64,000 nucleotides of DNA from Psychrobacillus sp. NEAU-3TGS. Lineage in GTDB: Bacteria > Bacillota > Bacilli > Bacillales_A > Planococcaceae. The notes under the pieces were generated by a model. The model ran no database searches, had not been told where the DNA came from, and saw nothing but the letters and a program-made list of their open reading frames with translations. This document shows, in pieces, positions 4,353 to 62,174 of this stretch; the first letter of the stretch is position 1, and each line of letters begins with the position of its first letter. Both the position numbers and the translations under genes were made by a program. The stretch lies in assembly GCF_029955155.1 (NCBI RefSeq), contig NZ_JAPNOZ010000012.1, positions 515,610 to 579,609 of the forward strand. The letters run 5' to 3'.

Positions 4353-4476
4353 GTTTATCCCCTCCATTTACATTAAATTATTTCATATAAGGACTTAAAA
4401 ACATTCATTTTATTAATCTACAGTTTACATTTATACTTATCAATAATCAATTTTGAAGAAGGAAGGTGAGCTAAAA

Positions 4477-5421
4477 ATGGATGGGAATAAATTGTTCGGG
4501 ATGATAAATGGAAGAGGATTAAACACTCAACTAAAAGCAGACTTCATGATGTTAATGGTGACCATGTTATGGGGTTCGTCCTACTTATTTATGAAGATGG
4601 GCCTCGATTCTCTACAAGAATTTAACTTAATAGCTTTACGTTTTGGCATAGCCTTTGTTTTAGCCGGGGCAGTATTTTACAAGCGTTTAATTCGTATTGA
4701 TTTTAAAACGTTTTTTTATGGATTTATATTAGGGACCATCTTGTTTTTAGTAATTACTGTTGTCACTATTGGATTAAAGTTCACGTCTATTTCAAATGCG
4801 GGATTTTTATTTAGTCTCTCCGTCGTATTTGTTCCGTTGTTATTAGCGATATTATTTAAAATAAAACCAGAAAAAAAAGTGATCTTTGGCGTGTGTATCG
4901 CAATACTAGGGATTGCACTTTTAACATTGAACAATGGATTAAAGATTAATTCTGGCGACTATTTAATTATCTTAGGTGCAGTATTTTATGCAACACAGAT
5001 CATTGTTACGGATAAGTTGACGAAAAATGTGGACTCGATCACACTCGGGATTATACAACTTGGGGTTGCAGGGACTTGGGGACTGCTATTTTCATTGTTT
5101 TTGGAAAAGCCACATCTTCCTAACACAACTGAATCCTGGGTTTCCATCATGGCTTTAAGTATCCTATGCAGTGCAATTGGATTTATCGGCCAAGCTGTAG
5201 CACAAAAACATACCACTCCCACGCACACGGGTCTTATATTTTCATTAGAACCAGTTTTCGCAGCCGGTTTCGCTTTTATGTTCGTTGGAGAAACACTTCC
5301 AGCTAAGGGTTACATAGGAGCAATCCTCATTTTTATAGGTGTCATAGCTGCAGAAATGAAGTTCAAGAATCCTTATATGAGAAAAAGATTTCACAAAACT
5401 GCTGAAGGCTCTAAAGCCTAG
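4477..5421 (+). CDS. EamA/DMT-family transporter (second copy)
   Basis: About 314 residues, ten predicted membrane helices. The start TMLWGSSYLFMKMGLDSL and the internal FYATQIIVTDKLTKNVDSIT match the equivalent segments of the transporter at 2546-3406, and the C-terminal helix is LIFIGVIAAEMKF. It differs by an N-terminal hydrophilic extension of about 27 residues and a basic tail (MRKRFHKTAEGSKA). The ATG at 4477 is preceded by GAAGGTGAG; a TTG at 4453 lies before that site. Divergent from the LysR gene at 3480-4352. A likely metabolite or amino-acid exporter; substrate unknown. Confidence 0.85.
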   Translation: MDGNKLFGMINGRGLNTQLKADFMMLMVTMLWGSSYLFMKMGLDSLQEFNLIALRFGIAFVLAGAVFYKRLIRIDFKTFFYGFILGTILFLVITVVTIGLKFTSISNAGFLFSLSVVFVPLLLAILFKIKPEKKVIFGVCIAILGIALLTLNNGLKINSGDYLIILGAVFYATQIIVTDKLTKNVDSITLGIIQLGVAGTWGLLFSLFLEKPHLPNTTESWVSIMALSILCSAIGFIGQAVAQKHTTPTHTGLIFSLEPVFAAGFAFMFVGETLPAKGYIGAILIFIGVIAAEMKFKNPYMRKRFHKTAEGSKA

Positions 5422-14454: not shown

Positions 14455-15234
14455 TTATTCCGATGGTTGAAGCGTTGTAATAAACTCCGCTAATTTATGA
14501 AGCTCTTCTTCCGTACCTTGGTAAGTGCCACCTGGCATCCCACCTAAACCTTCATGTGCAATGTTAACAATTTCATCAGGAGTATATTCTAAACCGATTA
14601 ACGGCTTACCTAAACCACCTTCGAATGCATTACCATGACAGCCAATACAAGACGATGCTTGGTATAACTGATAGCCTTCCGAAGTTTCATCAATCTCAAC
14701 TGCAACTTCTTCTCTAATCTCACCATATGCTTTAGCTTTTTCCCAGTCATGATTAACAACAGATTCCCATGTCAAGAAAATCATTGCAGCGATTGCTAAA
14801 AGCATAAAACCAGTTGGTAAAGGACGTTTAAATGGACGTCTTTCTTTACTTGTGTCTAGGAATGGTACTAATAGAAGTGCACCAAAAGCTAAACCTGGCA
14901 TGATAATTGCTCCGATAACGTTAAACGGACCTGAAGCAAACTCATATTTTAATAACTGGTATAAGAACAAGAAATACCAGTCTGGTACTGGAATATAGCC
15001 AGTGTCCGCTGGATCAGCAGGACGTTCCAGTGGAGACGGATGTGCTACAGTTAGAACTAGATAACCTACTAAGAAAACAGCACCGACTAACCATTCCTTC
15101 AATAAAAAGTCTGGCCAGAAAGCTTCTGTTTTACCCGGATACTCAGAATAGTCTTTCGGAGTTTTCTTTGGTCTGCTAGCTGGATCTGTGACACGTGAGT
15201 CACCAACAAATTTCATACCTTTACCGCGATGCAT
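14455..15234 (-). CDS. qcrC: Menaquinol:cytochrome c reductase, cytochrome b/c subunit
   Basis: 259 residues. It combines the subunit IV part of cytochrome b (helices around LVGAVFLVGYLVLTVAHP, FNVIGAIIMPGLAFGALLLV and FMLLAIAAMIFLTWESVV; PDWYFLFLYQLLKYE near 85-98) with a C-terminal c-type domain carrying heme motif CIGCH (196-200). This fusion is characteristic of the Bacillus menaquinol reductase. It passes electrons from menaquinol to cytochrome c at the membrane. AGGAGGGG precedes the ATG. Third gene of qcrABC. Confidence 0.96.
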   Translation of the reverse strand: MHRGKGMKFVGDSRVTDPASRPKKTPKDYSEYPGKTEAFWPDFLLKEWLVGAVFLVGYLVLTVAHPSPLERPADPADTGYIPVPDWYFLFLYQLLKYEFASGPFNVIGAIIMPGLAFGALLLVPFLDTSKERRPFKRPLPTGFMLLAIAAMIFLTWESVVNHDWEKAKAYGEIREEVAVEIDETSEGYQLYQASSCIGCHGNAFEGGLGKPLIGLEYTPDEIVNIAHEGLGGMPGGTYQGTEEELHKLAEFITTLQPSE

Positions 15235-15275
15235 AATGTCCCCTCCTTTTAAGAATTATCTGTGCCACTTACCCA

Positions 15276-15950
15276 TTATAGTGGTCCAGAAATACCTTGA
15301 CGACGAATCATGATAAAGTGTGCTGCTAGTAAACCAAATAATGCAGCTGGTAAGAAGAACACATGAATCGCAAAGAATCTTGTTAAAGTTTGTGCACCGA
15401 TGATATGCTCATCACCAGCAAGTAATGTTTTGATTATTCCACCGATAAATGGAACTGATGCAGCAATTTCGATACCTACTTTTGTTGCGAACAATGCTTT
15501 CATGTCCCAAGGTAGTAAGTATCCTGTAAAACCTAAACCTAACATAACAGCGAAGATTAATACTCCAACCATCCAGTTAAGTTCACGAGGTTTTTTATAA
15601 GAACCAGTAAAGAATACACGTAATGTATGTAAGAACATCATAACAATAACAAGCGATGCTCCCCAGTGATGCATCCCACGCACGATTTCACCGAATGCTA
15701 CTTCATTTTGAAGGTAGTAAACAGATTCCCATGCATTTTCAATATCTGGTACATAATACATAGTTAAGAACATACCGGATAGAATTTGGATTACTGTAAT
15801 GAAGAATGTTAATCCCCCGAAACAATAAACAAATGCAGAGAAATGGTGTGCAGGGTTTACGTGTTCTGGTACTTCGTGGTCTGCGATATCACGCCATATA
15901 GGTGTAATATCAAGACGTTCATCCACCCAATCATAGATTTTATTAAGCAC
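15276..15950 (-). CDS. qcrB: Menaquinol:cytochrome c reductase, cytochrome b6 subunit
   Basis: 224 residues with four core helices. Heme-ligand histidines are H94 (in GMHHWGASL) with H108 (MFLHTLRV) on the next turns, and the partner histidines lie in the helix containing FAIHVFFLPAALFGLLAAHF. GFTGYLLPWDMKA is the conserved quinone-site segment. It starts with GTG at 15950 behind AAGGGGG. Part of qcrABC; 41 nt before qcrC. A loop of this protein is mimicked by the small membrane protein at 58773-59063. Confidence 0.96.
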   Translation of the reverse strand: MLNKIYDWVDERLDITPIWRDIADHEVPEHVNPAHHFSAFVYCFGGLTFFITVIQILSGMFLTMYYVPDIENAWESVYYLQNEVAFGEIVRGMHHWGASLVIVMMFLHTLRVFFTGSYKKPRELNWMVGVLIFAVMLGLGFTGYLLPWDMKALFATKVGIEIAASVPFIGGIIKTLLAGDEHIIGAQTLTRFFAIHVFFLPAALFGLLAAHFIMIRRQGISGPL

Positions 15951-15971
15951 TGATGTCGTACCCCCTTACTT

Positions 15972-16475
15972 TTAAACTAATGTGTTAGGTATAGCTTTTC
16001 CAATTTCTAAGAAACCGTCATTTTCACGAATTTCAAATTGATCCAACGGACCTAGAGGTGGTGTTTTTGGAACGTTCTCTCCATTTTTCTCATAACGACC
16101 ATTGTGACATGGACAGAAGAATTGATTTTTGTGAGCTGGGTCACCTTCCCAGTTTACAGTACAACCTAAATGCTTACATACTGGAGAAAGTGCAATAATT
16201 TGATCTCCTTCTTTATAAACCCATGCAGCATTTGTTATATCAGACTTGTACCATGCATCCACTTGTTCAAAAGTGAAATCTACACGCTCAGGAACCTCCG
16301 TAATATCGGCAATTTTCTTCTCCGTTAATACGAAATCTCCACCTTCTGATTTTTGCAATACAGGATCAATTGCAAAACGTACCATTGGCATTAGCATCCC
16401 TGCCGCCATGAAACCGCCAACACCTGTTAATGTATAACTTAGAAATTGACGTCTTGATACTTTATTGTTACTCAT
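15972..16475 (-). CDS. qcrA: Rieske iron-sulfur subunit
   Basis: 167 residues. An N-terminal twin-arginine-like leader (SRRQFLSYTLTGVGGFMAAG) anchors the protein. The Rieske cluster ligands are C100 and H102 in CKHLGC and C121 with H124 in CPCHNG; C105 and C123 form the usual disulfide. First gene of qcrABC; the complex passes electrons from menaquinol to cytochrome c. Start ATG with a G-rich Shine-Dalgarno (GGGGGGAAAAGG). Confidence 0.96.
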   Translation of the reverse strand: MSNNKVSRRQFLSYTLTGVGGFMAAGMLMPMVRFAIDPVLQKSEGGDFVLTEKKIADITEVPERVDFTFEQVDAWYKSDITNAAWVYKEGDQIIALSPVCKHLGCTVNWEGDPAHKNQFFCPCHNGRYEKNGENVPKTPPLGPLDQFEIRENDGFLEIGKAIPNTLV

Positions 16476-54941: not shown

Positions 54942-55020
54942 TAACATTTCAAATTGCATATCTGCGATCAACTTAATGTTTTGGACATAAAAATAGACCT
55001 TCGAAATGATGGCCATGTTT

Positions 55021-55045
55021 GCTAAAGTACCCGTTAGTTGAACAA
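55021..55045 (+). repeat. CAACTAA/TTAGTT element 2
   Basis: GCTAAAGTACCCGTTAGTTG-AAC, preceded by an imperfect hairpin (AGACCTTCG/TGATGGCC). Confidence 0.45.
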
Positions 55046-55583: not shown

Positions 55584-55611
55584 CTTCAACTAAACTGCCG
55601 CTTTAGTTCAA
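55584..55611 (+). repeat. CAACTAA/TTAGTT element 3
   Basis: TTCAACTAAACTGCCGCTTT-AGTTCAA. Confidence 0.5.
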
Positions 55612-55648: not shown

Positions 55649-55673
55649 TGCTAAAGCACCCGTTAGTTTAAGT
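55649..55673 (+). repeat. CAACTAA/TTAGTT element 4
   Basis: GCTAAAGCACCCGTTAGTTT-AAGT, preceded by the hairpin GCTGTC-TCC-TGACAGC. Nearly the same as element 2. Confidence 0.5.
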
Positions 55674-56689: not shown

Positions 56690-56724
56690 TGTTCAACTAA
56701 CCTGCCCCGTTAGTTTAAGTGAAA
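56690..56724 (+). repeat. CAACTAA/TTAGTT element 5
   Basis: GTTCAACTAACCTGCCCCGT-TAGTTTAAGTG, the fullest copy. Confidence 0.55.
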
Positions 56725-58252: not shown

Positions 58253-58284
58253 TGTTCAACTAAACTGCGATGTTAGTTTGAGTG
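58253..58284 (+). repeat. CAACTAA/TTAGTT element 6
   Basis: TTCAACTAAACTGCGATGTT-AGTTTGAGTG; its right half covers the stop region of the SRPBCC gene. Confidence 0.5.
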
Positions 58285-58740
58285 TGCCAAAGCATTATTA
58301 TTTTTTTCAGCGCACTGTTTCAATTCCTTCATTTGTTTCTCTAAGCCTTTTTTCATAAATACACGAAAAATGATACTTATTATCTTTCCTGAAACAGTCT
58401 TAGCTGTTAGTTCTTCTGTAATGTAAAGAATGCTAGAATTCGTACTAATTTCTTGAAGTTTATAAGAAAGATTGATCAAGAAAGAAGGATGATTCATTTG
58501 AATACTTAATCTATTATTTTTATTGTATTCCGTAACTTGTCCTTCATATTCTTGAATACGGTTTCCTTCTCTTAACCTTTGTTTGAACTTTATACCAACC
58601 GGATTATTACTATCAAACTCCGTTAAATACTCCGTTCCTTCTAATCCTGTCATCCATTCTTTTTGTTTCTCATTATCTTCTAAGTAAGAGAATACTACCT
58701 CCTTAGATGCTTGAATCTCCGTTTGGCTTGTTATTAACAA
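58273..58740 (-). CDS. SRPBCC/polyketide-cyclase-like protein
   Basis: 155 residues with the START/SRPBCC lay-out: ITSQTEIQASKEVVFSYLED, NEKQKEWMTGLEGTEYLTEF, VGIKFKQRLREGNRIQEYEG and the long C-terminal helix RVFMKKGLEKQMKELKQC. Ligand-binding cavity protein, substrate unknown. TTG start at 58740 with GGGAGGG upstream. The 3' end lies in a repeat element. Confidence 0.75.
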   Translation of the reverse strand: MLITSQTEIQASKEVVFSYLEDNEKQKEWMTGLEGTEYLTEFDSNNPVGIKFKQRLREGNRIQEYEGQVTEYNKNNRLSIQMNHPSFLINLSYKLQEISTNSSILYITEELTAKTVSGKIISIIFRVFMKKGLEKQMKELKQCAEKNNNALAHSN

Positions 58741-58772: not shown

Positions 58773-59063
58773 TTATGCGCTAACCCTTCTTGAAGTACTT
58801 ACCTTCTTCTTAAATAATTTTTCATAAGCAAATAGGATAATGGCACAAATAACAGTTACACTCAAAATAGAATATAAAAAGAAATATGGGGAAATGATCA
58901 TGCCGAACGCTACTTCATTTTGAAGCACGTCCACTGTTTCCCATCCTTTTGGTATATCTGGATTATAATATTTTGTTTTTATATAACCACCCATAATCGT
59001 ATAAGCTGTATAAATTATATGAATGATGATCGAACCAATAAATGCTTGAAGAATTATCTTCAT
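58773..59063 (-). CDS. Small membrane protein with a QcrB-like loop
   Basis: 96 residues with two predicted helices (QAFIGSIIIHIIYTAYTIMG and FFLYSILSVTVICAIILFAY) and a basic tail. The intervening loop KYYNPDIPKGWETVDVLQNE continuing VAFGMI aligns with MYYVPDIENAWESVYYLQNE/VAFGEI of QcrB, about 17 of 30 identical. The heme-ligand histidines of QcrB are absent. ATG at 59063 after GGAGGGATG; an extra ten upstream codons are not needed. Function unknown. Confidence 0.7.
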   Translation of the reverse strand: MKIILQAFIGSIIIHIIYTAYTIMGGYIKTKYYNPDIPKGWETVDVLQNEVAFGMIISPYFFLYSILSVTVICAIILFAYEKLFKKKVSTSRRVSA

Positions 59064-61543: not shown

Positions 61544-62174
61544 ATGGATAGCTTACTAATATATATTTCAATTGCTGCAATGATGGTTATCATACCTGGA
61601 GTAGATACGATGTTGCTAGTGAAAAATACGCTCGCTTATGGTCCAAAAGCTGGACGTTTTACGGTACTCGGTATGGCAGCGGGACTCTCTTTTTGGACGC
61701 TTATCGCCATTCTCGGTTTATCTGTTGTCATTGCAAAGTCTGTTGTTCTTTTCAGTATCATTAAATATTTGGGAGCCGCCTACTTAATTTATTTAGGGAT
61801 AAGAAGTTTTTTTTACTAAAAGCATGTTTTCTTTAGAAGAGATTCAATCACAAGCAAACACACCTACAAAATATTCAAATCAACATAATAAAAGTTCCTT
61901 TATGCAAGCATTACTTAGTAATGTTCTCAATCCAAAGACTGTTTTGGTTTATATAACGATCATGCCTCAATTTATCGATTTGAATGAAAATGTAAATCAG
62001 CAATTGATTATGTTAGCCTTCATCCTTACTTTACTCGCTGTTTGTTGGTTTCTAACTCTTGTTTATGTGATTGATTATGCAAAAAAATGGTTGAACAACT
62101 CCAAATTCCAGAAGGCATTCCAAAAATCAACGGGATTAATTTTAATTGGGTTTGGCATAAAAACAGGCATATAA
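61544..62174 (+). pseudogene. LysE/RhtB-family exporter, frameshifted
   Basis: First frame: MDSLLIYISIAAMMVIIPGV, DTMLLVKNTLAYGPKAGRFT, GMAAGLSFWTLIAILGLSVV and LGAAYLIYLGIRSFFY-stop. After a run of eight T, dropping one T gives SFFTKSMFSLEEIQSQ and joins the second frame with FMQALLSNVLNPKTVLVYIT through LILIGFGIKTGI. The result is 209 residues, normal for this exporter family of amino acids. So it is a one-base insertion in a homopolymer, or a miscount. Divergent from trmB. GAAGGGAG precedes the ATG. Confidence 0.85.

Follow-up and report, generated by a model that had tools for sequence, protein, structure and literature searches.

A family of two-helix membrane proteins in Bacilli that very probably derives from the cytochrome b6 AB hairpin

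A small gene in a 64,000-nucleotide stretch of the Psychrobacillus sp. NEAU-3TGS genome (hereafter, the window) raises the question of why its 96-residue product resembles QcrB, which is the b6-type cytochrome b subunit in menaquinol:cytochrome c reductase and is encoded in the same window, and of what such a protein might do. The gene lies on the minus strand at 58773–59063 (ATG at 59063, stop codon at 58773–58775), and a Shine–Dalgarno sequence, GGAGGG, can be read 8 nt before the ATG (59077–59072, minus strand). A GNAT gene is located upstream, with a terminator-like hairpin (59119–59103, minus strand; consensus match only) between the two genes, and a START-like gene follows at 58273–58740. 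No known RNA element was found at this locus. The nearest named record carrying the gene is Psychrobacillus lasiicapitis (78% identity). The AlphaFold model of the protein (six sequences; pLDDT 74, pTM 0.50), which is of medium confidence, consists of two long helices and an extra helix in the loop, and its comparison with PDB folds gave no meaningful match. Further along the window (61544–62174, plus strand), a homoserine/threonine-efflux-type transporter gene is split by a frameshift near a run of eight T (approximately 61807–61814). Its halves match positions 1–74 and 75–185 of TIGR00949, and it is either a pseudogene or the product of a sequencing error.

The qcr genes of the window span 14455–16475, with qcrB at 15276–15950 on the minus strand. 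BLASTP aligned the 96-residue protein with this QcrB at 21 identical residues of 39 (E = 4e-11) in the region of helix A and the ab loop, where the matching QcrB residues 52–90 are encoded at 15681–15797. A gap-free stretch, KYYNPDIPKGWETVDVLQNEVAFG in the small protein and MYYVPDIENAWESVYYLQNEVAFG in QcrB, contains 16 identities in 24 residues. The loop resemblance pointed out in an earlier note on this DNA is thus real and not a chance match, and QcrB is the sole other protein of the same genome that the small protein matches significantly. In the sequence alignment, the conserved cytochrome-b-like ab loop comprises residues 26–54 (GYIKTKYYNPDIPKGWETVDVLQNEVAFG; 58902–58988, minus strand). 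The hairpin as a whole aligns without gaps, residue 1 falling near QcrB residue 34 and the basic end of TM2 on QcrB K119–K120, as judged from the sequences. The best NCBIfam match of the protein is cytochrome b6 PRK03735 (NF002990; E = 1.2e-7) with 31.8 bits, which is below the cut-off of 325, and the second-best profile match, over the same AB region, is ExtP (NF040969; E = 1.9e-5). Pfam Cytochrome_B (PF00033) was likewise matched below its cut-off (E = 0.02; 15.2 bits versus 27.2).

The residues that QcrB uses to bind heme are missing from the small protein. The heme contacts of QcrB were assigned partly from what we take to hold for cytochrome b in general. Another part of the assignment came from a study of cytochrome b6 (PMC5730185). 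At a fixed offset of 33, His94, His95, His108, Arg91, and Cys43 of QcrB correspond to Phe61, Phe62, Ile75, Ser58, and Gly10 of the window protein. All five are replaced; therefore, no known heme contact is left, and the absence of the heme histidines noted earlier is confirmed. The GG pair of helix A is also gone. Helices C and D are absent, so that the protein has neither the four-helix core nor the heme-ligating histidine pairs of helices B and D. Quinone binding, which the earlier note had considered, gained no support from the analysis. The loop is largely retained: across nine lineages, G, T, Y, P, D, W/Y, V, L, Q, E, V, A, F, and G are found at the cytochrome b positions, the exceptions being single members and the lineage coded f16 (f16, f22, f27, f44, and f52 are lineage codes). 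The family has also acquired residues of its own, of which His15 and Pro59 are invariant and Tyr18 and Ser58 nearly invariant; none of them is QcrB-like.

The protein belongs to an unnamed family of two-helix proteins of about 80–105 residues. With the 96-residue protein as the sole query, at E ≤ 1e-9 (a threshold that excludes QcrB), homologues were found in 61 of 261 genomes from its taxonomic family. When a profile built on 23 members was used, it identified carriers in 33 of 398 sampled Bacilli genomes, which represent nine taxonomic families, and none in a phylum-wide draw outside Bacilli. Several genomes hold second copies. Individually, 22 of the 23 aligned members match NCBIfam cytochrome b6 (best E = 1.7e-8), and hhalign of the family profile with QcrB gave a probability of 97.5% (E = 7.6e-12). 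Together with the match of the 96-residue protein itself, these results answer the profile search proposed in the earlier note in favor of homology. Apart from cytochrome b, no convincing family for the small protein was found in Pfam, NCBIfam, PHROGs, or PADLOC, and no account of a protein of this kind emerged from full-text searches of the literature. The family is undescribed and patchily distributed across the class Bacilli. The dN/dS values between pairs of close relatives are mostly 0.1–0.45; the genes are therefore functional and moderately fast-evolving.

The similarity was located by sliding the family profile along QcrB and scoring each register. For the whole family, the 29-residue loop ranked first (z = 8.3), and neither of the two helices stood out (rank 31 of 198 and rank 34 of 194). 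A signal confined to the loop would, on its own, allow convergence, in which an unrelated two-helix protein acquired a cytochrome-b-like loop, and the limitation of the main-family similarity to about 29 residues is what that explanation has in its favor. Against it, members of lineage f22 resemble QcrB beyond the loop, as in locus L190, where PILSGLYLTHFYVPDITEAYDEVNVLQNEVAFG stands against QILSGMFLTMYYVPDINNAYESVKYLQNEVAFG of its own QcrB. Helix A of f22 is in register with QcrB at rank 1 of 197 (z = 4.2–4.5) in three sequences and at rank 3 in two. The member at locus L196 has helix B in register as well (rank 1 of 169, z = 2.6) and exceeds the Pfam Cytochrome_B cut-off (31.4 versus 27.2 bits) over residues 14–86, which include both helices; all of its 34 PDB matches are cytochrome b or b6. 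The f22 members are in turn connected to the main family independently of the loop, since their TM1 segments match at a one-residue shift far better than at any other (score of 20.4 versus 1.8) and have in common an S-x3-[H/N]-x2-[Y/F] motif that QcrB lacks. In a tree of the hairpins, QcrB attaches beside f22 with weak node support. This chain from the main family through f22 to QcrB, together with the tree, favors the view that the family arose once, from the qcrB AB hairpin. Convergence is accordingly quite improbable. Common ancestry with the cytochrome b AB hairpin is well supported, most strongly through f22, and the family has very probably descended from the QcrB segment of helix A, ab loop, and helix B with loss of the heme ligands. 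Descent from a qcrB fragment, one of the options raised earlier, thus stands on the family-wide profile matches and the f22 and L196 results. The likeness to QcrB is due to shared descent, and the idea that the protein imitates a cytochrome b6 loop was not borne out.

A further explanation would be that a fragment of qcrB was copied recently within this genome, as a pseudogene or by gene conversion. The DNA similarity reported earlier bears on this point. The 17-mer GCTACTTCATTTTGAAG is present at 58909–58925 (minus strand), where 17 nt are the same as in qcrB (CTTCAAAATGAAGTAGC), and in this single genome the same codon is used at 16 of 21 shared residues, compared with about 10 expected (p ~0.003). 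Over 35 genomes, however, 264 identical codons were counted against 257 expected. Copying has therefore left no trace in the DNA, and the window represents an upper-tail case. Recent copying is also at odds with the purifying selection on the family and with its presence in nine taxonomic families. The shared nucleotides reported earlier are present, but they do not testify to copying. The codon tests indicate that the DNA match of the 96-residue gene to qcrB is a coincidence of codons and not a recent copy; despite the excess in this genome, the 35-genome totals rule out recent copying or gene conversion, to which we give a negligible probability.

What the heme-less hairpin does can be addressed through its relation to the bc complex. 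QcrB is encoded by all 33 carriers, as compared with 288 of the 398 genomes overall; the carriers come from only nine families and the co-occurrence is not independent of phylogeny, so this association is no more than suggestive. Loop sequences are closer to the QcrB of their own lineage than to those of others (permutation p = 0.013), although p rises to 0.07 without f16. Examples of such tracking are Tyr in place of Trp in f22 and f27 and the loss of the aromatic residue at the Phe position in f16. Lineages f44 and f52 do not follow this pattern. In f16, the ab loop of QcrB itself (L181–L183, L186, and L187) departs from the Bacilli norm, with Trp changed to His and Phe to His (INAHASVYYLQNEIAHG), and the small proteins of this lineage are likewise without both aromatic residues.

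Cytochrome b6 can be divided into an AB and a CD hairpin, and the AB half has been reported to assemble alone in vitro (PMC5730185). Because the hairpins are separable, an AB half devoid of heme could take the AB position of QcrB or compete for it. It would dock on the surface usually contacted by the hairpin of QcrB itself, namely that of the CD half, QcrC, or the Rieske protein, and the docked protein would act as an accessory subunit, an assembly competitor, or a regulator of menaquinol:cytochrome c reductase. Assembly with the qcr complex, as the earlier note had suggested, is plausible on circumstantial grounds, namely the presence of QcrB in all carriers and the weak tracking of the loop. 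Docking on the bc complex is nevertheless a tentative proposal. Counting against it are the unlikeness of the main-family helices to those of QcrB, the lack of a qcr-adjacent locus and of a conserved neighbor, and the medium-confidence model with no PDB match. The combined reading, in which an AB-hairpin origin with loss of the heme ligands goes together with docking, is to be held just as tentatively. Rather unlikely is the fuller version, in which a natural heme-less AB half replaces or competes with the QcrB hairpin and the gene serves as an optional element of respiratory control in Bacilli.

About as likely as docking is that a hairpin of qcrB origin was repurposed, its loop being kept for the fold of the hairpin itself, with a role unrelated to the bc complex that is perhaps exerted through His15, Tyr18, and Ser58–Pro59. 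The invariance or near-invariance of these non-QcrB-like residues, the divergence of the helices from QcrB, and the lack of a link to qcr loci agree with such repurposing, while the presence of QcrB in all sampled carriers and the weak tracking of the host QcrB by the loop speak for the bc complex. Repurposing is a real possibility that we stop short of calling probable.

Comparison of the neighbors within 5 kb across 43 loci revealed no conserved operon or neighbor, and an explanation by operon logic was rejected on this basis. Little recurs beyond close strains, and the sole recurrent neighbor at that distance is a DUF4181-type membrane protein, found at six loci of three genera (L123 at 5933, L139 at 4374–4796, L143 at 5427, L149 at 3912, L152, and L146). 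The small gene was near qcr genes in none of the inspected loci. Neither the phage nor the plasmid collection contained a match to the small protein, and carriage as phage or plasmid cargo was discarded as well.

In several genomes of the genus, the small gene is embedded in arrays of short repeats. At L137 (1659–8712; genome G156), it is flanked by two 99% identical transposase ORFs of 440 residues on the same strand, presumably IS110-like, in a composite-transposon-like arrangement. The short-repeat arrays and the flanking IS110-like genes are consistent with an optional, mobile gene. At L123 (3300–8350; genome G017), small genes on the same strand alternate with pairs of short palindromic sites, AACTAACGGGTGCTTTAGTT after one gene and AACTAACGGGGCAGGTTAGTT before the next, in a pattern that resembles a gene-cassette array; the small gene of this locus ends within one such site. 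Similar arrays were observed at L124, L126, L127, L129, L130, and L137, and sites in the window lie at 55020–55039, 55588–55608, 55649–55668, 56695–56715, and 58258–58278. The first site (AACTAACGGGTGCTTTAGTT) is present in 19 of 19 genomes of the genus; copy numbers range from 3 to 214, and the copies often cluster and show a strand bias. The reversed control pattern gave zero copies, and the 30 qcrB loci contained none of these sites. No Rfam family matched the palindromic repeats at the gathering score, and full-text searches found no description of them.

These accessory or mobile surroundings, including the repeat arrays and IS copies, together with the patchy distribution, the second copies in several genomes, and the fast change, would suit a decoy or immunity function, in which the small protein protects QcrB against a toxin, bacteriocin, or phage factor recognizing the ab loop. 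The small protein has none of the marks expected of anti-phage defense or immunity, as it matches no PADLOC defense model and nothing in the phage or plasmid collections, and its loci have no conserved toxin-like neighbor. A decoy function is improbable, and less likely than either docking or repurposing.

Should the hairpin act on the bc complex, it would offer a natural handle, small in size, on a complex targeted by drugs in other bacteria, and the partner served by the ab loop of cytochrome b would become testable. Even if its function is unrelated, the family clearly illustrates the birth of a two-helix protein from a portion of a four-helix cytochrome, and intermediates can still be seen in f22 and f27. 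To our knowledge, fragments of core respiratory subunits that persist without cofactor as separate conserved proteins have rarely been documented.

Among known systems, the closest is the AB hairpin of QcrB/cytochrome b6 (PF00033; NF002990), with which the small protein has in common the loop sequence, the gap-free hairpin length, and the two predicted helices, as well as helix A in the f22 members. It differs from QcrB in having two helices in place of four, in lacking the heme ligands, the heme-c cysteine, and Arg91, in being encoded alone and away from the qcr genes, and in scoring far below the NCBIfam cut-off. ExtP, a b-type cytochrome of selenite/tellurite reduction, is matched over the same AB region because of common cytochrome b ancestry, and is itself a full heme-bearing cytochrome b. 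CydX, a single-helix accessory protein of a respiratory enzyme, is a tiny membrane protein as well, and the small protein described here may likewise associate with a respiratory complex. CydX is not derived from a catalytic subunit.
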